This document shows, one piece after another, positions 7,300 through 40,430 of a stretch of DNA of 64,000 nt. The stretch lies in NCBI RefSeq assembly GCF_026898095.1, contig NZ_CP114015.1, positions 2,356,001-2,420,000 of the forward strand. Direction: 5' to 3'. The notes beneath the pieces are model-generated. The model had not been told where the DNA came from and made no database searches. It was given only the letters and a program-made list of their open reading frames with translations. This DNA is from Arthrobacter sp. ATA002. Lineage in GTDB: Bacteria; Actinomycetota; Actinomycetes; Actinomycetales; Micrococcaceae. Numbering within the stretch: position 1 is the first letter of the stretch; each line of letters opens with the position of its first letter. The position numbers and the translations under genes are program-made.

Positions 7300-8508
7300 A
7301 TGAAGGCAGTGGTCTGGCACGGCATTGGAGATATCCGTCTTGACGAGGTTGACCAACCAACCATTCAGGACCCGCACGATGCGGTCGTGCGCATCACCGG
7401 CAGCGCGATCTGCGGCACGGACCTGCACTTCATCCGCGGGACCATGGCACCAATGCAGGAAGGTACGATCCTTGGCCACGAAGCTGTCGGTGTCATCACC
7501 GAGGTAGGCGATAAGGTACGCGGCTTCAGTCCCGGGGACCGTGTCCTTGTTAACAGCACTATCTCCTGCGGAGCGTGCCGTCACTGTCGGATGGGCCAAA
7601 CAGCGCAGTGCGATATCTCCAACCCCCGCGGTCCCGAGGCCGGAACCAGCTTCTTCGGCGGCCCTGAATCCACCGGCCCCGTCAATGGGCTTCAGGCCGA
7701 GTATGCGCGTATCCCCTGGGCGCAGGGCACCCTGCATCCGTTGCCGGAGAACGTCAGCGATGAGCAGGCCATCCTGCTCAGCGATATCTTCCCCACCGCG
7801 TGGTTCGGTGCCGAACTCGCCGGCATCACCCGCGGAGATACTGTGGCGGTGTTCGGTGCCGGGGTTGTCGGGCAGTTCGCCATCGCCTCCGCCTTCAAGC
7901 AGGGGGCCAGCCGTGTCATCTGCGTGGACGGCATCGAATCCCGCCTCGCCCAGGCACGCACGCAGAACGCGGAGATTGTGAACTTCAATGAGGAAGATCC
8001 GGTTGCTGTCATTAAGGACCTGACCAACGGGTTCGGGGTTGACGCCGTTATTGACGCCGTCGGAGTTGATGCCCAGCACCCCTCCCGCGGGCCGGCCGCG
8101 CCGTCGGCGGAGGAGAAGGCCGGGTTTGAGTCCGAGGTGGCCCAGGTGGCACCGGATGCCGATCCGCAGGGCGGCACATGGGTTCCCGGGGACGGCCCGT
8201 CCCAGGCTTCGCGCTGGGCAGTGCAGGCTGTTGCCAAGTACGGCCGCATCGGCATCATCGGCGTCTACCCGCCCTCATTCCAGACCTATCCCATGGGTGA
8301 GGCCATGAATAAGAACCTCACTATCCGTATGGGTAACTGTGATCATCACTCTGTCACCCCGGCGCTGATCGACATGGTCGCCGCGGGCCAGTTCGATCCG
8401 ACCGCACTGATTACCCAACACGAGAACATCACCTCAGCCATCCACGCCTACGAGGCCTTCGACCGGCGGGAACCGGGCTGGACGAAAGTCGAACTGAGCA
8501 TGCCCTGA
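7300..8508 (+). CDS. zinc-dependent alcohol/formaldehyde dehydrogenase family
   Basis: A 402-residue medium-chain dehydrogenase. It has the catalytic zinc site (GSAICGTDLHF and GHEAVG), the four-cysteine structural zinc loop (CGACRHCRMGQTAQC) and the Rossmann motif VFGAGVVGQFA. Its length and the insertion around residues 250-300 (GVDAQHPSRGPAAPSAEEKA) fit the glutathione-independent formaldehyde dehydrogenase-like branch, which oxidises small alcohols or aldehydes with NAD. The start at 7300 has GAAGGGG 8 bases upstream. It stands alone on the plus strand about 250 bases after the P450. The substrate is not readable from sequence. Confidence 0.85.
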   Translation: MKAVVWHGIGDIRLDEVDQPTIQDPHDAVVRITGSAICGTDLHFIRGTMAPMQEGTILGHEAVGVITEVGDKVRGFSPGDRVLVNSTISCGACRHCRMGQTAQCDISNPRGPEAGTSFFGGPESTGPVNGLQAEYARIPWAQGTLHPLPENVSDEQAILLSDIFPTAWFGAELAGITRGDTVAVFGAGVVGQFAIASAFKQGASRVICVDGIESRLAQARTQNAEIVNFNEEDPVAVIKDLTNGFGVDAVIDAVGVDAQHPSRGPAAPSAEEKAGFESEVAQVAPDADPQGGTWVPGDGPSQASRWAVQAVAKYGRIGIIGVYPPSFQTYPMGEAMNKNLTIRMGNCDHHSVTPALIDMVAAGQFDPTALITQHENITSAIHAYEAFDRREPGWTKVELSMP

Positions 8509-30692: not shown

Positions 30693-31867
30693 TCAAACGG
30701 CCACCTGAACCGCAGGGCCGGTGTTGGCCAGACGGCGGAGCTTTGGCACGGGAATCCGGTAGTTCAGTGCGGCCGCAGTTCCGGTGCCGTCCCTGTTCTC
30801 CCACCTGACCAGCATCGATTCCTCGTCCGCGCCCGGCTCCCAGTAACCGGGGATTCCTTCCACGGGCGTGAAACCCACCGATTTGAGCGATACACCGAAC
30901 GCTTCAGTCCAGAAATACGGCTGGAAATCGAGCGCCGGGGCCCGGTCGCCCAGGAGCAGGCCCAAGGCTGCAGCTTTCGCCTGCTCAATGGCGCTGATCC
31001 ACAGCGGAACCCGCCCTGTTCCCTGCCGGGCGGGTATTGACGCGACGTCGCCGGCGGCAACGATGTCCGGCCTTACCCGTCCCCGGGAGTCGACCCGCAA
31101 CTCGCCGCCAACGAGCAGTCCCGTGCCGGCCAGCCAGCTGACATTGGGTTCATCACCTATGGCGCTCACGATGAGTTCCGCTTCCAGCTCAGTGCCGTCC
31201 GCCAGAACGACGCGCGGACCCGAGCCGGAATCCGCAATCCGCGCCCTCGTTCCGGAGACCAGCCGCAACCCACGGCGGGTGGCAGCGGCTACGAACACTC
31301 CGGACAGAAAACCGCCGAGCTGGCGTGTGAGCGGCGGCGCGTCGGAGACCAGCGTGACGCTGCAGCCCGCCTGCAGGCAGCCGGACGCGACTTCCATGCC
31401 GAGAGCCCCGCCCCCGACCACCACAACCGAAGGACGCCGCACAATCTGCTCCCGCAGCGCAAGGGCATCCTCAAACGTGCGCAGCGTCAGTTCACGCGAA
31501 GCCTCCCCGGACCGGCCGGCGTCGTGCTCCGGCGCAAGCCGTTTCGCCCTGGACCCGGAAGCAATGACCAAGCCGTCATACGGCAGTCCCCCTCCCCGGC
31601 CAGCCGGACAATCCGTGCTTCAGGATCCAGTCCGTCAGCGCTGACGCCCAGCATCTCGGTTGCCCCGTGGGACGGGTCGGGCAGCTCGTGTGCCGTCAGG
31701 CCGCCGTCGTGCAGCAGCGCCTTGGACAGTGCGGGCCTGCTGTAGGGCTGGTGCTGTTCGGTGCCCACAACCGTCAAGTCGCCGTCGAAACCCGCCGAGC
31801 GCAGAGAGTCGCAAGCGGTCAGCCCGGCAATGCCGTTGCCGACCACGACAATGCGGTCCATTTTCAT
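30693..31867 (-). pseudogene. ferredoxin reductase (FAD/NADH), one-base frameshift
   Basis: 391 residues when restored. The N-terminus has the FAD motif IVVVGNGIAGLTACDSLR and YSRPALSKALL, then the frame breaks at GGGGG (31588-31592). One more G gives GLPYDGLVIASGSRAKRL and continues. The NAD motif VVVVGGGALGMEVAS and the conserved DIVAAGDVAS (FAD-binding Asp) follow, with a C-terminal reductase domain (YFWTEAFGVSLKSVG). This is a rubredoxin/P450-type ferredoxin reductase, moving electrons from NADH to the [3Fe-4S] ferredoxin at 31881. It is a likely consensus error, since the rest of the module is intact. Confidence 0.85.
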
Positions 31868-31880
31868 GCCCGCCCCGCCG

Positions 31881-32075
31881 TCACGCCTGCACCAGGCGGA
31901 GGGCCGCAACCGGGCAGACCCGAACCGCCGCCTTGGCAGGCTCGAGCTGCGGTCCCTCCACGTCCGGGACATCGATCACGAGGTCGCCGTCATCGTCCAG
32001 ATGCATAAGTTCCGGTGCCGCTTCCTCGCAGAGTCCGTGGCCTTCGCATCGGGGCTGATCGAGTTCGATCCTCAT
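31881..32075 (-). CDS. [3Fe-4S] ferredoxin, P450 partner
   Basis: 64 residues with CEGHGLCEEAAPE and CPVAAL: three cluster cysteines in the CxxHxxC...CP pattern, which coordinates a [3Fe-4S] cluster in P450-linked ferredoxins. The acidic middle (LDDDGDLVIDVPD) is usual. The start overlaps the P450 stop by 4 bases (ATGA), and the reductase gene follows after 13 bases, so all three are one operon. Confidence 0.9.
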   Translation of the reverse strand: MRIELDQPRCEGHGLCEEAAPELMHLDDDGDLVIDVPDVEGPQLEPAKAAVRVCPVAALRLVQA

Positions 32076-33243
32076 GCTGCCTCCACCGCCGCAACGTTCA
32101 GGGTTTCAAAGCTGCGGGTGATGTTGCTCGGGATCCGCTCCCCGTTTCCCACGCTCATGGTTTTCACGCGGCGGGCCAGCGCTGCGATGATGGCGTGGCC
32201 TTCGAGCCTGGCCAGGCCCTGCCCGGCGCAGCCGTGCGGGCCGTAGCCGAACGAGAGATGGTCAACCGGGTTGCGGCTCACCTCAAAAGCATCCGGATTC
32301 TCGTAGTGCCTCGGGTCGTGGTTTCCGGCACCGATGAGGAGGCCCAGTTGGGCTCCGGCGGGAACGGTGACACCACCGATGTCGACCTCGCGCGTTGCCG
32401 TTCGGCCCCAGATGTGCATGGGAGCCCAGTAGCGGAGGACCTCGGCGAAGGCTGCGGGAACCAGATCCGGGTTGTCGCGGACAAGTTTCAGCTGCTCCGG
32501 GTGGCGGCCGAACAGGGCAACGGTGTTTCCAATCGAGGCAATCGTGGTGTCGACGCCGGCGCCGAGGTACTGATGGATGATGTGCCCTGCGGAGCCTGCG
32601 GGAATGTCGCCGCGGGCTTCGGAATCGAAAATTCCGCGGCCGATGGAGCCGGGCGCGAGGTCACCGGCGCTCACCGATGAGCACCAGGCATAGAGCTCGC
32701 CGGCAATGGGGAAGTTCTCTCCGGTCCGGCGGTTCATCGGACCCAGGACCTGCATGGCGGCCTGCCCCCACCGCAGCATGTTCTCCTTCACATGGCCGTT
32801 GAACCCGATGAGATCGGCAACGATTTCGAGGGAAAGGCGCGGGCCAAAGAGTCGACTGCTTCAAAGCTTCCGCCGCTGACCAGCTCTGCGACGAGTTTGT
32901 CGGCCTTTTCGTCGATGGTGACTTTGAGCCCGCGCAGGGCACGGGGCGTGAGGTTCTGTGACAGGGCCGCGCGCAGCTGCGTGTGCTGCGGCGGGTCGGA
33001 GGCCAGCGATGTGCCCTGCAGTGCCTCGTTCACCATCGCATTGAAGCCCAGCGAGGTGGAGGAAAACGCTTCCGGGTCCCCCAGGACGTCGCGGATGACG
33101 TCATAACGCGTCAGCACATAGATTCCGTTTTCCGGAAGGTGGACAACGCCGGCCTGTTCACGCAGCGCGGCGTACGTCGGGTAGGGGTTGACCAGGACGT
33201 CGTCGGCCCAGATATCAATGTTTGATTCAGTCGGTACTGCCAT
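32072..33243 (-). pseudogene. cytochrome P450 of the module, one-base frameshift
   Basis: 390 residues if one base is restored near 32830-32832, where GGG on the plus strand (CCC in the gene) should be four, giving FPLEIVADLIGFNGHVKENM. Motifs are the I-helix oxygen-activation site YLGAGVDTTIAS, ExxR as AEVLRYW, and the heme loop FGYGPHGCAGQGLARLE with the Cys ligand. It is a class I P450 with its own ferredoxin and reductase downstream. ATG 33243 lies behind GAAAGGAG. The substrate is unknown; the hydrolases on the other strand suggest an ester, lactone or terpenoid-like compound. Confidence 0.85.
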
Positions 33244-33534: not shown

Positions 33535-34596
33535 GTGAGCCACCCAGCAGACACAGGTGTTGCCGGCATGACGCCCAGCACCGCACTGAAAACCGCCACA
33601 GTCAACACCGTCCTCGGACCCGTGCCGGCTGACGAACTGGGCGTGGTCGCGGTTCACGAGGCATTGCTCTGCGTGCTTCCCGGCGCTGAGCACGCCCCCG
33701 ACATCACCTTTGACCGGGCGGAGATCTTCGAGATCCTGGCGGCCAAGCTCACGGACTTCCGTACCCACGGCGGAAACACCATCGTCGACAGCACCGGAAT
33801 GTTCCACGGGCGCGACCTCAAACTCTACGAAGCTCTCTCCCGCACCACCGGAGTAAACATCATTGCCTCCACGGGAATGGGTCCCGAGGAAATGCTGGGC
33901 GGCTATTTCCTGACTCCGCAGACGAACCCGCCCACCCCGTGGCCGGCCGAGAAGTTCGCCTCCCTGTTCACGAAAGAGGTCACCGAAGGCATGGTGGTTC
34001 CGCGCGTCGAACGCCGCGCCGCCGCCGGCCTGGTGGCCAGCGTGGCGCACCGAAACGGCATGACGGCGACGGAGGAGAGCCTGTTCCGCGGGGCGGCGCG
34101 CACCGCTGCCGCCACCGGCATCCCGGTGTCCATCCGGTTCGGCGCCGACGCCGTCCACGACCTGGACATCGTGCTGAGCGAGCAGCTGCCGGCAAACCGC
34201 GTCATGGTTGGCGGCCTGGACCGCCGCGACGCTGCCGGCGCCGCCCTTGAGGTGGCCCGCCGCGGCGCCTACGTCGTCCTGGATCACGTGGGACTCAACG
34301 ACGACGGCGCCTACCTCAGCGACCGCGCACGCGCGGCCCTGGTGCTCGAGCTGGTCGCGGCCGGCTATGCGGACCGGATCCTGCTCTCCACCAATGCGGT
34401 CGGCGTGGCCAAGGGCATCCCGTCCTACGACCTGCCGTACAGCCACGTCCTGTCCACGTTCATGCCTTTCCTGGCGTCCCTGGGCCTGACCGACGAGGAT
34501 GCCCGGCGCATCCTCGCGGACAACCCCGGGACCTGCTCTCGGTGCGCTGAAGCACCGCCAGCGAATGATCCGGATTCTTTTCTAATTTTGAGGTGA
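33535..34596 (+). CDS. phosphotriesterase-like protein lacking metal ligands
   Basis: 353 residues, clearly paralogous to the next gene over the whole length (VNTVLGPVPADELGVVAVHE against VNTVLGTIPAEELGLVAVHE). Aligning the two, the metal-site residues of PTE-type hydrolases are replaced here: HxH is H-E-A, the bridging Lys is Ala (GLVASVAHRNG), the two later His are Arg (PVSIRFG) and Gly (VMVGGLDRRD), and the Asp is Asn (LLSTNAVG). Only the first His remains. The barrel is intact in length, so this is probably a structural or regulatory partner. GTG 33535 has GGAGG 6-10 bases upstream. Its stop overlaps the next gene's GTG by 4 bases. Confidence 0.85.
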   Translation: MSHPADTGVAGMTPSTALKTATVNTVLGPVPADELGVVAVHEALLCVLPGAEHAPDITFDRAEIFEILAAKLTDFRTHGGNTIVDSTGMFHGRDLKLYEALSRTTGVNIIASTGMGPEEMLGGYFLTPQTNPPTPWPAEKFASLFTKEVTEGMVVPRVERRAAAGLVASVAHRNGMTATEESLFRGAARTAAATGIPVSIRFGADAVHDLDIVLSEQLPANRVMVGGLDRRDAAGAALEVARRGAYVVLDHVGLNDDGAYLSDRARAALVLELVAAGYADRILLSTNAVGVAKGIPSYDLPYSHVLSTFMPFLASLGLTDEDARRILADNPGTCSRCAEAPPANDPDSFLILR

Positions 34597-35555
34597 AGCA
34601 GTTGTCCAAGGTAAACACAGTGCTGGGAACCATTCCGGCCGAAGAACTGGGCCTCGTGGCAGTCCACGAGCACATCGGCTACGGGATGCCCGGCAGCGAG
34701 CTGGACTCCCAGTGGTGGAAGACGCCCGAGCAGGCCTACGAGGAAACGGTGCCCAAGCTCCGCCGGTTCCATGAGAACGGCGGCGGTACCTTCGTGGATG
34801 CCACCGGCATCTGCAACGGCCGCGACATCGACTACTACAAGTCCCTGTCCAAGAAGACCGGCGTGAACATTGTGGCCTGCACGGGCTTCGTGGGCGGAGA
34901 CACCGCGCTGCCGCATTTCTCCCGGGCCAGCGTGGAATATCTGGCCCGGGTCTTTATCTCCGAAATCACCGTGGGCATCGGAAACACCGGCAGCAAAGCC
35001 GGCGTCATCAAGGTTGGCGTGAGCCGCGGCGGGCGGATGACGGAGCTGGACAAGCGCATTTACCGGGCGGCGGCACGCGCAGCCGTCGTCACCGGAGCGC
35101 CGGTGCTCACCCACCTTGCCATCGATCCGCAGCCGGCCATCGACATCTTCGCCGAGGAAGGGCTGCCGCTGGACCGCGTGCTTTTCGGACATGCCGACGA
35201 CGGACTGAACGCCGCGGACACCCCCAGCGAGTGGATCATGGGCCAGGGCGGCCGGATCGGCTTTGACACCTTCGGCTACGAAACCGAGCTGCCGGACCCG
35301 CCGTTCTGGGCCCGTCCCCGCAAGGAACGCCTGGATCACTTCCTGTCCCTGGTGGAAAAGGGCTTTCTGGATCAGCTTCTCGTCTCCGCGGATGCCAACT
35401 GCAGTCCGCTGGGCTGGCCCGGCGTCAAAGGCCACACGGTGAACTACATTTTCGAAACCCTGATCCCGGACCTGCAGCGCAACGGGATTGACGACGCGCA
35501 GATCCGGCGCATCTTTGTCGAGAATCCCGCTGCCTTCCTGTCCCTCTCTGCCTGA
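34593..35555 (+). CDS. phosphotriesterase-like lactonase/esterase
   Basis: 320 residues with the full binuclear metal site: HEH in VAVHEHIGYG, the carboxylated Lys in AGVIKVGVSR, His in VLTHLAID and VLFGHADD, and Asp in LLVSADANCS. These PTE-like enzymes of the amidohydrolase superfamily hydrolyse lactones, phosphotriesters or carboxylic esters. GTG 34593 overlaps the previous stop; TTG 34602 (MSKVNTVLG) is an alternative start with GAGGTG upstream. Followed by the FAD monooxygenase after 65 bases. A lactonase fits the pathway better than an organophosphate role, but that is inference. Confidence 0.88.
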   Translation: MKQLSKVNTVLGTIPAEELGLVAVHEHIGYGMPGSELDSQWWKTPEQAYEETVPKLRRFHENGGGTFVDATGICNGRDIDYYKSLSKKTGVNIVACTGFVGGDTALPHFSRASVEYLARVFISEITVGIGNTGSKAGVIKVGVSRGGRMTELDKRIYRAAARAAVVTGAPVLTHLAIDPQPAIDIFAEEGLPLDRVLFGHADDGLNAADTPSEWIMGQGGRIGFDTFGYETELPDPPFWARPRKERLDHFLSLVEKGFLDQLLVSADANCSPLGWPGVKGHTVNYIFETLIPDLQRNGIDDAQIRRIFVENPAAFLSLSA

Positions 35556-35620: not shown

Positions 35621-36739
35621 ATGAAGATTTCCGAGTTCAAAGACCTGCACATCGCCATTGTCGGCGGCGGCTACGGCGGAGCTGCCGCAGCCATTGCCCT
35701 GAAGAGCATCGGCGCGGAAAACGTCCATGTCTATGAGCAGGCACCGGCCTTCGGCCAGGTTGGCGCCGGCATCGGCCTGCGCCCGACCACCGTTGAACTG
35801 TTCCGGCAGTGGGGCATCTTTGACGCAGTTGCGGCCGTCAGCTCGCCCAGCGAGCACCTGGAGATCATTACCGCCGACGGCGGACACGTGATCGTCCAGG
35901 AGGAATGGCCGATGCTGCACGGGTACGCCCAGACCAACCACACCCGCATCATTCACCGCGGCGACTTCATCGACGCGCTCTTCGGCGCACTTCCGGCGAA
36001 AATGGTGCACGTGGGTTACAAGCTCACCGGCATTGCGGATGAAGGCACGACGTCGACGCTCACCTTCGAAAACGGCGAAACCGTCACCGCGGACCTGGTC
36101 ATCGGCGCCGACGGCATCCGCTCCCTGGTCCGCCAGCAGCTGTTCAGCGACAAGGCTCCGGTCTTCGCCGGCGAGCATGCGTACCGCACCGTGATCTCCA
36201 TGGACGACGCCTTTGACCTGGTCACCGATGACAACCCCCGCTTCTTTGTCGCCCAGAACGGCACCGTTGCCTACAACCTGCCGCTGCGGCACCGCAACGA
36301 AGTCTCGTACGACATCACTGCCCGTTCCGAGGACGACACCTGGGCGCCGGTCATCACCAATGAATACCTCGTCTCACTCCTCGAGGGCTTCGACGAGCGG
36401 GTTGTGAACGTTGCCCGCACGCTGGACATCAGCAAGGTCACCAGCCGTTCGGTATACGACATCGATCCGATCGATGTCTGGCATACGAATTCCGTCACCC
36501 TGCTGGGCGACTCGGCGCACGCCATGCTCCACCACCAGGGCCAGGGCGCCAACTCCGCCATCCAGGATGCCGGCGCGCTCGCCGACGCCCTGCTGGAAGC
36601 CGGTTCCGTCCCCGAGGCCCTGGCTCTCTTCCAGGCCACCCGCAAGCCGGTCACCGATGAACTGCAGCGGCTCTCCCGGCTGGGCTGGACGCCGGAATCA
36701 GCAGAAAACGCCTTCCCCGAGCAGACCCCGGCCAACTAG
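35621..36739 (+). CDS. FAD-dependent monooxygenase (salicylate-hydroxylase-like)
   Basis: 372 residues. FAD-binding GxGxxG in IAIVGGGYGGAAAAIALK, the second FAD motif DLVIGADGIRSLVRQ (DG), and the third GD motif VTLLGDSAHAMLHHQGQG. This is the class A flavin monooxygenase fold, using NAD(P)H and O2 to hydroxylate aromatic or other ring compounds. It is in the same operon as the phosphotriesterase-like genes. Start ATG 35621 after AGAAAGCGAAAG is a weak but workable site. Confidence 0.88.
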   Translation: MKISEFKDLHIAIVGGGYGGAAAAIALKSIGAENVHVYEQAPAFGQVGAGIGLRPTTVELFRQWGIFDAVAAVSSPSEHLEIITADGGHVIVQEEWPMLHGYAQTNHTRIIHRGDFIDALFGALPAKMVHVGYKLTGIADEGTTSTLTFENGETVTADLVIGADGIRSLVRQQLFSDKAPVFAGEHAYRTVISMDDAFDLVTDDNPRFFVAQNGTVAYNLPLRHRNEVSYDITARSEDDTWAPVITNEYLVSLLEGFDERVVNVARTLDISKVTSRSVYDIDPIDVWHTNSVTLLGDSAHAMLHHQGQGANSAIQDAGALADALLEAGSVPEALALFQATRKPVTDELQRLSRLGWTPESAENAFPEQTPAN

Positions 36740-36790: not shown

Positions 36791-37741
36791 ATGACGATTC
36801 ACCCCGAAATTGCCAAGATTCTCAGCACTATTCCCGCCCCCGACGGCTCCCCGCTCGATCCGCAGGCCATGCGTGCCGGCGAGGCTGCCCAGGTTCCTCC
36901 GCTTGAGGAGCGGCTTCCGCTGCACGGCGTGGAGGACAGAATTGTTTCCACCTCGGCGGGCGAGGTGCCGGTGCGTATCTACACCCCCGCCGAGGCGGAG
37001 TCCTACGGCCTGATCGTCTACTTCCACGGCGGCGCCTTCTTCCTGGGCAGCCTCGATACCCACGACCACGTTGCCCGGTCCCTGGCCAAGGAGACCGGCC
37101 ACAAGGTCATCTCGGTGGACTACCGGCTGGCACCGGAGGCGGCCTTTCCGGCCGGCCTCTCGGACTGCTACGGCGTGGTCCGCTGGGCGGCGGAGCACGG
37201 CAGCGAGCTGGCGTGGAACGGCGCCACCCTCGCCGTCGCCGGTGACAGCTCCGGCGGAACCTACGCAGCCGCGGTGGCGGCCATGGCTCACGAGGACGGA
37301 TTCGACGCCGTCACGCACCAGATCCTTTTCTACCCGTCGCTGGACCTGGACTTCGACGTCGACCGCTATCCCTCGATGCGGGAGAACGCCGAGGGCTACG
37401 GCTTGGAAACCGCAGGCCTGGCGCCCTTCAACGCGTTCTACCTCAACAGCGGAGCGGATCCCGCGGATCCGCTGGTCTCCCCCATCAAGCGCCGCGACCT
37501 CACCGGCCTGCCGCCGGCCCTGGTCATCACCGCCGAGCACGATCCGCTGCGCGACGAGGGTGAGCTGTACGGGAAGCGGCTGCAGGAAGCAGGCGTGAAC
37601 ACAACGGTCAGCCGCTACGCCGGGGCAAACCACGGCTTCGTGGCCAACTTCTCCTGGCTTCCGGAGTTCTATCAGGCCTTCCGGGAAGCGGGGAACTTCC
37701 TGGCGGGCAACGCTCCGGCCGGGCAGGACCGCGCCTCATGA
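36791..37741 (+). CDS. alpha/beta hydrolase, HSL-type
   Basis: 316 residues. HGGAFFLGS oxyanion motif, nucleophile in AGDSSGGTYAA, acid in AEHDPLRDEGE, His in ANHGFV. Short-chain esterase or lactone hydrolase of the hormone-sensitive lipase family. The end overlaps the next ATG (ATGA). ATG 36791 follows AAGGACACGCC. It is in the middle of the catabolic operon and so probably acts on the same pathway intermediates. Confidence 0.9.
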   Translation: MTIHPEIAKILSTIPAPDGSPLDPQAMRAGEAAQVPPLEERLPLHGVEDRIVSTSAGEVPVRIYTPAEAESYGLIVYFHGGAFFLGSLDTHDHVARSLAKETGHKVISVDYRLAPEAAFPAGLSDCYGVVRWAAEHGSELAWNGATLAVAGDSSGGTYAAAVAAMAHEDGFDAVTHQILFYPSLDLDFDVDRYPSMRENAEGYGLETAGLAPFNAFYLNSGADPADPLVSPIKRRDLTGLPPALVITAEHDPLRDEGELYGKRLQEAGVNTTVSRYAGANHGFVANFSWLPEFYQAFREAGNFLAGNAPAGQDRAS

Positions 37742-38679
37742 CCGGCGCCGCTGTTCATCCGCTGTTCTCGCCCTGGGGACGGTTCGGCCTGTACAGCTAC
37801 TTTATTGACGCGCCGGAACCGGCAATCGTGGACACCGGCATCGCGTCGTCCCCGGCTAAAGGCCTGATTCCGGCCCTCGAAGCACTCGGACGAAGCATCG
37901 AGGAGGTCCGCTGGATCCTGTTGACGCACGGCCACATCGACCACCTCGGCGGCGCCAAGGCTCTGTGGGAACTTACCGGAGGCAAGGCGAAGGTCGTTAT
38001 TCATGCCGCGGACGCACCCCTGCTGCGGTCCCGGCAGGTACACGTGGAGGACTACGTGAACGGCCGCAGCCGTTACCTCAAGGATCCCGGCGGAGCCGAG
38101 AACCAGGCGAGGACGGCGCAGGCCGTGATCTCGGGCGAGATGGAACCGGCAGTGCTGCTGCAGGGCGGGGAAACCCTCTCCCTCGGCGGTGACGTGACCG
38201 TCTCCGTTCACCACGTTCCCGGCCACACACCGGGGTCCGTGGCCTATGTCCTGGACGGGCAGGATGCCGTCTTCACCGGAGATGCCGTGCAGATCCACGG
38301 AGCCGCCAATCGCTTTCCCGGCTATACGGATCCGAACGCCTACCGGGCCAGCCTGGAATACCTGCGCGATGAGGTCCGGCCGCAGCGCCTGTACCTGGGC
38401 CACCCGTACCGCGGGGCGGACGGCGAGCCCAACGGCGTCGAACTGGACCGTGAGCGGGCCCGGCGGGCACTGCAGGAAAGCCTGGATCTTGAGGCACGCA
38501 TCCGGAACAGCATGTCCGACGCCGGGCTGCAGGACGGCCCGGAGGACGTGGACTCCGTATATTTCCCGTTCGCCCGGGTGGCCGCCGACCTCGGCTACAC
38601 CTCCGACCCCACCCTCGAGCCGTCACCGTTTTTCACCACACTTGACGGCTACCGCACCCAGTTGAACCTGTTGTCCTGA
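37738..38679 (+). CDS. MBL-fold metallo-hydrolase
   Basis: 313 residues. Metal motif HxHxDH in LLTHGHIDHLGG, then VPGHTPGSVAY (His), FTGDAVQ (Asp) and YLGHPYRG (His): the complete two-zinc site of metallo-beta-lactamase-fold hydrolases. The family includes glyoxalase II, lactonases (AHL lactonase type) and thioesterases. It is translationally coupled to the upstream hydrolase through ATGA. A lactonase or thioesterase role in the pathway is plausible. Confidence 0.9.
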   Translation: MTGAAVHPLFSPWGRFGLYSYFIDAPEPAIVDTGIASSPAKGLIPALEALGRSIEEVRWILLTHGHIDHLGGAKALWELTGGKAKVVIHAADAPLLRSRQVHVEDYVNGRSRYLKDPGGAENQARTAQAVISGEMEPAVLLQGGETLSLGGDVTVSVHHVPGHTPGSVAYVLDGQDAVFTGDAVQIHGAANRFPGYTDPNAYRASLEYLRDEVRPQRLYLGHPYRGADGEPNGVELDRERARRALQESLDLEARIRNSMSDAGLQDGPEDVDSVYFPFARVAADLGYTSDPTLEPSPFFTTLDGYRTQLNLLS

Positions 38680-38699
38680 TGCAAGGAGCTTTTCCGAAG

Positions 38700-40430
38700 A
38701 TGGCCAGTTACCAGACAATCGACGCCGGCGGCCTGCCGATCGCGGTCCGCAAGGACCTCCGGGTTCCGATGCGGGACGGTGTCGAGCTCGCCGCCGATGC
38801 CTACTCGGCCCCGGATGAGAAGCCGCGGCCCGCGCTCGTCGCGCTGAGTCCCTACGGCAAGGAACTGCAGGCTCTTGCGCTGACCATGCCGCCGCAGCGC
38901 AGGCCCAGCCCGATGTGGGACGGGTGCATCGAAGCCGGCGACATCGCCCGCATCGTGGAGGAGGACTACGTCCACGTCATCGGCGACCTGCGCGGCTCGG
39001 GGCACTCCGGCGGCGAACACATCGGCAACTACAACGCCGGCGGGGTTTCCCTGGGCGAAGACGCCTACGACTTCATTGAATGGGTGGCGGCCCAGCCCTG
39101 GTGCGACGGCAACGTCGGCATGGTGGGCATCTCCTACTTCGGCTCCATGCAGGTGCTAGCCGCTGCCGAGCGTCCCCCGCATCTGAAGGCCATCTTCGTT
39201 TCCGGCGGACACTACGACTTCTACGAAACCACCTACCACGGCGGCGTCATGTGGTTCATGCCGCGCGCCGCCCGCGAAGGCCGCGGCGGCGACTCCGGCT
39301 GGGCGTTCACCGACCGCGTGAAGTCCCGGATGATCGAGAAGTACTCCCCCGGCGAGCTGCAGGAGCTGGTCGCCAAGCGCCTGGCGGATCCCGACGTCGC
39401 CGCCTGGCCAAACCTGGTGCACGTGCTGAACTACCCGAAGAACCATGAGGCCTGGTTCGACATCGTCATGAACGAGCTCGACGGCGACTGGTACGAGGAG
39501 CGCAACCCCATCACGCTGGCGCCGAATATCGACATCCCGGTGTACCTGCAGATCGACCAGGGCCGCGGCTGGACGATGGACGGCACGATCGAACTGTTCG
39601 ACGCCCTTCAAGGTCCGCGGAAGCTCGATATTGGCCCCTACCCGCCCATGCAGTCGCGGCCGTTCATCGAAGAACACGACAAGATGTTCCGCTGGTACGA
39701 CTACTGGATCAAGGGCATCGACAACGGCGTGATGGACGAGCCCGCCGTCAGCGTTTTCGTGGAGGGATCGCGGAAGCACGTCACCGGCGAAGCGTGGCCG
39801 CCGAAGGAGGTCGAGTACAAGCCGCTGTACCTGCGTCCCCGCGGCAAACTGAGCGCCGACCCTGAACGGATGGGCGTCCGGCATGCTGCTCCGGACGGCT
39901 TCTACCAGGCGCCGCTGACGGTGACGGACAAGGTGGAGATTCTCTCCTGGAGCACTGAGGTGTTCGAGGAGGACACCGAGCTGATCGGATCCGGCGCGGC
40001 GCACCTTTTCGCCGAGATCGACCAGCCCGACACCAACTTCATCCTGCGCCTCTGGGACTACGCTCCCACCGGCAAACGCCAGCTCATCACCACCGGCTAC
40101 CTCAAGGCCTCGCACCGTGAGCTGGATGCGGAGCGCACCACCGAGGGGAATCCGTTCCATCCGCACACACGGGCAGTGCCGGTGGAGCCGGGGAAGATTG
40201 AGGAATACGTGGTGCGCCTGTATCCGTTCGCGACCACGTTCCTTCCCGGACACAAGCTGGTGGCAGAGCTCTCCAACGCCGAACCGCTGGCGGATGAACA
40301 CAACGCGCTGCTGCCTCCGGATGCCTTCCATCTCCCAGTGGGCCGTCCGGTGACGCACAAAATCCACCGTGACGCCGAGCATCCGTCGCGGCTCGTACTG
40401 CCCTTCACCGCGGGCAGCGTGAAGAACTAA
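38700..40430 (+). CDS. CocE/NonD family hydrolase
   Basis: 576 residues from ATG 38700 (AAGGAG 11 bases upstream; the earlier in-frame ATG 38679 has no site). Alpha/beta hydrolase domain with VPMRDGVELAADAYS at the start, nucleophile in GMVGISYFGSMQ (GxSYxG), then a cap and a C-terminal jelly-roll domain (LSWSTEVFEEDTELIGSGAA and after). This CocE/NonD family includes cocaine esterase and X-Pro dipeptidyl peptidases and typically cleaves bulky esters or amides. It is the last gene of the catabolic operon; a 19-bp terminator stem follows. Confidence 0.88.
   Translation: MASYQTIDAGGLPIAVRKDLRVPMRDGVELAADAYSAPDEKPRPALVALSPYGKELQALALTMPPQRRPSPMWDGCIEAGDIARIVEEDYVHVIGDLRGSGHSGGEHIGNYNAGGVSLGEDAYDFIEWVAAQPWCDGNVGMVGISYFGSMQVLAAAERPPHLKAIFVSGGHYDFYETTYHGGVMWFMPRAAREGRGGDSGWAFTDRVKSRMIEKYSPGELQELVAKRLADPDVAAWPNLVHVLNYPKNHEAWFDIVMNELDGDWYEERNPITLAPNIDIPVYLQIDQGRGWTMDGTIELFDALQGPRKLDIGPYPPMQSRPFIEEHDKMFRWYDYWIKGIDNGVMDEPAVSVFVEGSRKHVTGEAWPPKEVEYKPLYLRPRGKLSADPERMGVRHAAPDGFYQAPLTVTDKVEILSWSTEVFEEDTELIGSGAAHLFAEIDQPDTNFILRLWDYAPTGKRQLITTGYLKASHRELDAERTTEGNPFHPHTRAVPVEPGKIEEYVVRLYPFATTFLPGHKLVAELSNAEPLADEHNALLPPDAFHLPVGRPVTHKIHRDAEHPSRLVLPFTAGSVKN

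Follow-up and report, generated by a model that had tools for sequence, protein, structure and literature searches.

The window, by which we mean the whole stretch of 64,000 nucleotides that was analysed, carries two adjacent genes of the phosphotriesterase (PTE) family, here called gene 1 (product P1) and gene 2 (product P2). They and their neighbours are listed below; the counts in brackets refer to a set of 60 loci described further on, some of which are cut by contig ends.

30047..30664, minus strand: TetR-family regulator (TetR match in 41/60 loci)
30693..31972, minus strand: ferredoxin reductase, two ORFs split by a frame change (C part in 26/60 loci, N part in 25/60)
32072..33243, minus strand: cytochrome P450, two ORFs split by a frame change (N part in 29/60 loci, C part in 28/60)
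33535..34596, plus strand: gene 1 (P1), PTE-fold pseudoenzyme with H41, A43, A168, R201, G227 and N287 at the ligand positions
33880..33948, plus strand: residues 116-138 of P1, loop after strand 3, better conserved than any other 23-residue window of P1
34593..35555, plus strand: gene 2 (P2), predicted PTE-family metallohydrolase that keeps all the ligands H25, H27, K140, H174, H200 and D267
35621..36739, plus strand: FAD-dependent (class A) monooxygenase (58/60 loci)
36791..37741, plus strand: alpha/beta hydrolase of the hormone-sensitive-lipase (HSL) type (58/60 loci; nearest solved relatives HSL-type esterases)
37738..38679, plus strand: MBL-fold hydrolase (54/60 loci, on the opposite strand in 8 of the 54)
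38679..40430, plus strand: CocE/NonD-type hydrolase (53/60 loci, one of them a remnant, L076; nearest solved relative cocaine esterase)

An earlier note on this DNA had described two neighbouring reading frames as a PTE-like pseudoenzyme followed by its intact paralogue. Both open reading frames are indeed present, and both products match the Pfam PTE family (PF02126, cut-off 22.4 bits), gene 1 with 124.5 bits over residues 32-331 and gene 2 with 173.2 bits over residues 17-316; they share 33.5% identity over 322 residues. The match of gene 1 runs across the whole domain, and its predicted model has the (beta/alpha)8 fold of the PTEs. The binuclear centre of active PTEs and PTE-like lactonases (PLLs) is held by the ligand set H, H, K, H, H, D. 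This set is complete in gene 2 (HHKHHD), whereas gene 1 has HAARGN; as the note had stated, five of the six ligands are replaced and the first His alone is kept, and it is by this lost metal centre that gene 1 differs from the PTE/PLL family. The two genes are the sole PTE matches in the whole 3.9-Mb genome, and gene 2 reached no NCBIfam equivalog cut-off.

The two genes had also been called coupled. They do overlap by four bases in the window, and tight spacing proved to be general, with a median gap of 36 nt (range -13 to 56) over the 60 loci, but this particular overlap is not. The last 20 or so codons of gene 1 (34523-34596) are out of frame in the window relative to its relatives, most of which end in a motif like NPRDLLSVR followed by the stop codon; in Caballeronia the pair has a separate 4-base overlap. 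Frame changes also split the P450 gene and the ferredoxin-reductase gene immediately upstream, whereas in relatives the P450 reads through in a single frame at 26 of 28 loci and the reductase at 24 of 25. Three frame changes (reductase, P450 and the C-terminus of gene 1) are thus clustered at 30693-33243 and 34523-34596. The completeness of this genome is 94.24%. Assembly indels are a likely cause of the frame changes, another option being recent decay in this genome. Indels do not account for the loss of ligands in gene 1, because the same replacements recur in the relatives, and assembly error as its source is therefore ruled out.

The genes downstream and upstream give an idea of the pathway in which the pair may act. 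The nearest solved relatives of the FAD monooxygenase are 6-hydroxynicotinate 3-monooxygenase, tropone 2-monooxygenase and salicylate hydroxylase, those of the MBL gene are B3-type MBL and other hydrolases, and the Caballeronia P450 is CYP199-like, CYP199 being its nearest solved relative. Taken with the esterase-like hydrolases listed above, these relatives point to the catabolism of an oxidised aromatic compound bearing an ester or a lactone. The TetR matches have 38-82% identity, so that not all of them need be orthologues. No characterised operon of this kind was found among the PDB relatives of the neighbours or in the open-access literature searched. The whole operon is also aboard a betaproteobacterial plasmid (L106; NC_021295.1, 124527-137194), which suggests transfer between phyla; on plasmid p2 of Caballeronia insecticola the genes run in the order TetR, P450, ferredoxin, reductase, gene 1, gene 2, monooxygenase, alpha/beta hydrolase, MBL, CocE, transporter and MFS. 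At two other loci an MFS transporter gene adjoins the alpha/beta hydrolase (L040:10292-11605 and L039:4587-5876), with no MBL or CocE gene in the stretch retrieved there; this transporter is perhaps the uptake system of the pathway.

How widespread the pair is was assessed in several sets of genomes. A pattern scan for gene 1 over one genome per species (84,980 species) gave 60 confirmed loci, all of them actinobacterial, in which gene 1 is 58-79% identical. The scan used short exact peptide patterns from gene 1, and hence distant copies are missed and a gene 2 without gene 1 is undetectable in this set. Not one of the 60 copies of gene 1 has the canonical ligand centre: the strings are HAARGN (23 loci), HATRGN (14), HAARGG (8), HAARGS (5), HATRDN (3) and seven others found once each. 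Gene 2, by contrast with its neighbour, reads HHKHHD in all 59 loci that have it. Outside the actinobacteria, the Caballeronia copy of gene 1 is 59% identical to that of the window and has the string SSVRGS.

Whether gene 2 occurs without gene 1 was assessed by searching the family and the phylum with gene 2 as query. In the family sample, in which the two genes were queried separately, 29 of 295 genomes (our own included) hold a close gene 1 (at least 57% identity), and the identical 29 hold a close gene 2 (at least 76%), the two being adjacent by coordinates. In the phylum sample both are found in the same 2 of 396 genomes, one of which is the window's own. No close gene 2 without a close gene 1 was found in these 295 and 396 genomes. 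Within the class, 296 genomes were scanned with Pfam, which gave at least four such pairs (G000, G348, G753 and G897), and those of G753, G897 and G348 were each confirmed by a further check. These counts are not independent, because the genomes share ancestry and the sets overlap: L133 (G897) is the same genome as L068, and L134 (G753) the same as L031. The earlier note had proposed looking for the same pair elsewhere, and gene 1 and gene 2 do recur together, in 59 of the 60 loci and in all 29 family genomes; at every locus where a whole pair was found, they adjoin. Gene 1 therefore shows two of the marks by which a pseudoenzyme partner is recognised, namely a conserved protein that has lost its catalytic residues, and co-occurrence with a presumably active paralogue.

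Homologues in which the first gene is absent or frameshifted at random had been named as evidence that would go against a selected role. In the family and phylum samples gene 1 was never absent beside a close gene 2, but damaged copies do exist: the C-terminus is affected in the window and in L069, G128 has a mid-gene frame change, and the L076 copy contains a stop codon. In L076, a Streptomyces and the one locus without gene 2, everything between the end of gene 1 and the last part of CocE (residues 465-577) has been deleted, and the one leads straight into the other (L076:6001-7278); the operon is disappearing here in one piece, and we count this locus in favour of a partnership of the two genes. 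In G128, on the other hand, gene 2 is intact beside the frame-changed gene 1, which counts against gene 1 being a partner of gene 2. Two irregular copies of gene 2 were also seen, with about 70 codons inserted in frame in L054 (near 7672-7889) and a frame change in L043 (near 7747).

Selection on the two genes was compared by dN/dS, estimated by a simple Nei-Gojobori count that in these high-GC genomes has comparative value only. With L043, L054, L076 and identical sequences left out, there were 1540 pairs, 1362 of them with dS <1 in both genes; the medians for pairs with dS <1 are 0.29 for gene 1 (1357 pairs) and 0.22 for gene 2 (1360 pairs), and in a few close pairs gene 1 reaches 0.78. The conservation of P1 was followed in an alignment of 62 rows for gene 1 and 61 for gene 2, from which rows of <290 residues (gene 1 of L076 and gene 2 of L043) were dropped; L085 and L087 have the same sequence, leaving 61 distinct gene 1 rows. 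Residues 116-138 have a mean identity of 0.987, the highest of any 23-residue window in P1. Positions conserved in at least 95% of rows make up 20 of the 23 in 115-137, whereas in the domain as a whole they number 134 of 310 (hypergeometric 9e-6, for a window picked post hoc). The Caballeronia loop is identical at 22 of the 23 residues, though this copy has no ligand left.

The earlier note had suggested selection for a non-catalytic role, such as a hetero-oligomer partner, a stabiliser or a ligand-binding regulator. The part of this interpretation that stands is a selected role independent of the PTE metal centre: the ligands are gone in 60 of 60 loci, dN/dS is low, and in the family sample gene 1 occurs in the same genomes as gene 2. 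As to what the role is, we favour, with moderate confidence, a PTE-fold subunit that has no catalytic function and forms a pair with the metallohydrolase encoded by gene 2, and we infer the physical association. The dead twin, which many soil bacteria have next to the live enzyme within one catabolic operon, is probably a partner of that enzyme, because its metal centre was lost while one loop stayed nearly unchanged, and the position of that loop favours the same role. We take it to align with residues 97-98 of SsoPox, just after a shared TG motif, going by the motif and a provisional alignment and not by coordinates. In SsoPox, residues 97 and 98 are described as lining a groove between the monomers that joins the active sites, at the homodimer interface (PMC7084321). 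Five PLLs, SisLac and SsoPox among them, are reported to be homodimers, and in SisLac the exchange of interface position 34, in some variants along with position 14, cost much of the lactonase activity (PMC3468530).

A heterodimer of gene 1 and gene 2 would take the place of the homodimer typical of PTEs and PLLs. In it, the near-invariant loop of gene 1 would pack on the mouth of the gene 2 active site, and this contact could order the active site, shape the substrate pocket or stabilise the enzyme. The substrate of gene 2 is probably a lactone, an ester or a similar intermediate supplied by the P450 and the FAD monooxygenase of the operon, to judge from the neighbours only. In the predicted monomer model of gene 1, pLDDT falls below 50 at residues 122-132, which lie in the loop, as well as at 49-53 and at both termini; the gene 2 model has no run of three or more such residues. 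The low values in the loop might indicate a segment that is ordered by its partner alone, and plain flexibility or a shallow alignment can produce them as well. The co-occurrence of the two genes also agrees with two proteins that act separately within one pathway.

Among the other roles to be considered, the one that survives best is that of a ligand-binding protein of the pathway, in which the metal-free pocket with R201 and H91 would bind a substrate or a product, whether for regulation, for buffering or for passing an intermediate on. The pocket-side residues of gene 1 are conserved (R201 in 61, H91 in 60 and D229 in all of the 62 rows), the Arg that replaces the strand-5 His could hold a carboxylate, and a purely structural role does not require that R201 and H91 be kept. 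However, D229 is kept in gene 2 as well and may for that reason be structural, conservation peaks in the loop and not at the strand ends that bore the former ligands, and a TetR gene already stands beside the operon in 41 of the 60 loci. We consider this role unlikely, while giving it real weight. Less probable again is that gene 1 is an enzyme working without a binuclear centre, through acid-base residues or a single metal held by other residues such as H41, H91 and H251. Metal-free hydrolases exist in other folds, and H41 (61 of 62 rows) and H251 (52 of 62) are, like H91, largely retained; but H251 is replaced by N, Q or S in the 10 other rows, and the Caballeronia copy has Ser at the position of H41, which makes a metal site built on this residue unlikely.

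A second tandem, in which a degenerate PTE gene directly precedes an intact one, was found in three genomes: G012 (L107:8569-10709, on G012:C7), G090 (L129) and G112 (L130). In G012, which is of the same genus, the dead gene ps2 (356 aa, RH-P-DRS) has a 4-base overlap with the live gene in2 (357 aa, HHEHHD); in G090 and G112 the dead copy has the string GHVDGG, and that of G090 matches Pfam PTE weakly (33.2 bits). The gene order resembles that of gene 1 and gene 2, but the ligand set of the live copy is of the Glu type and the neighbours in G012 (amidohydrolase, aldo-keto reductase, MoaF, O-methyltransferase and SDR) are different. In the tree, gene 1 falls beside gene 2 (84/66, weak), and ps2 falls inside the Glu-type group to which in2 belongs (99/95, starred). 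Grouping of the two dead lineages, as a single ancient dead-PTE family would have it, is rejected by the tree and the AU test (p-AU 0.0103), with the caution that the branches are long, the placements unsure and the tested group named after the tree was seen.

Dead copies as unlike each other as these (G012 is 37-38% identical to the other two) might mean that tandem PTE copies merely drift and that ligand loss in one of them is unremarkable. Tandem pairs in G785 and G848, however, have both copies intact, and in G840, where the contig ends within the second copy, the first is intact and all five visible ligand positions of the second are retained. Tandem arrangement alone thus does not bring decay, which refutes the notion that all tandem PTEs decay, as far as the contig runs in the case of G840; together with the failure of the two dead lineages to group, this makes mere drift very improbable. 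Hardly credible at all is a functionless, decaying duplicate: the broken or frame-changed copies described above and the somewhat faster evolution of gene 1 speak for it, but its identity across 60 actinobacterial loci and a betaproteobacterium, its median dN/dS and its near-invariant loop speak against it, and conservation and dN/dS rule out a pure pseudogene.

Returning to gene 1 as a subunit of gene 2, a more general proposal, which we put forward tentatively and would sooner doubt than accept, is that PTE-family hydrolases became obligate dead/live heteromers at least twice independently, and that in the widespread form the near-invariant 23-residue loop of the dead chain crosses the dimer interface and completes the live active site, a division of labour in which lid and metal centre would be uncoupled.

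The nearest precedent is the pseudo-dihydroorotase (pDHO), a relative of an amidohydrolase-superfamily enzyme. This protein is inactive and is reported to be needed for the ATCase activity of Pseudomonas aeruginosa (PMC7053772). Like gene 1, pDHO is an inactive relative of a superfamily enzyme, but the ATCase that it supports is of unrelated fold, whereas the proposed partner of gene 1 is a neighbouring, presumably active paralogue from the same family. A comparable setting is provided by QsdA, a PTE-type lactonase. The qsd catabolic operon of Rhodococcus erythropolis is described as containing QsdA and a fatty acyl-CoA ligase (PMC6476934, PMC6262395). It is likewise a catabolic operon of an actinobacterium, and the excerpts of these articles name one lactonase and mention no dead twin. 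No description of a dead/live PTE pair was found in the open-access literature, nor one of this conserved catabolic operon in the literature searched.

PTEs and PTE-like lactonases serve as a model family in the study of enzyme evolution and in enzyme engineering. How important the dimer is to them biologically has been called unclear (PMC3468530). A natural pair that is kept in many actinobacteria and has one chain freed from catalysis would, if our reading is true, make the role of the second subunit directly testable, and the pair marks a conserved catabolic operon.
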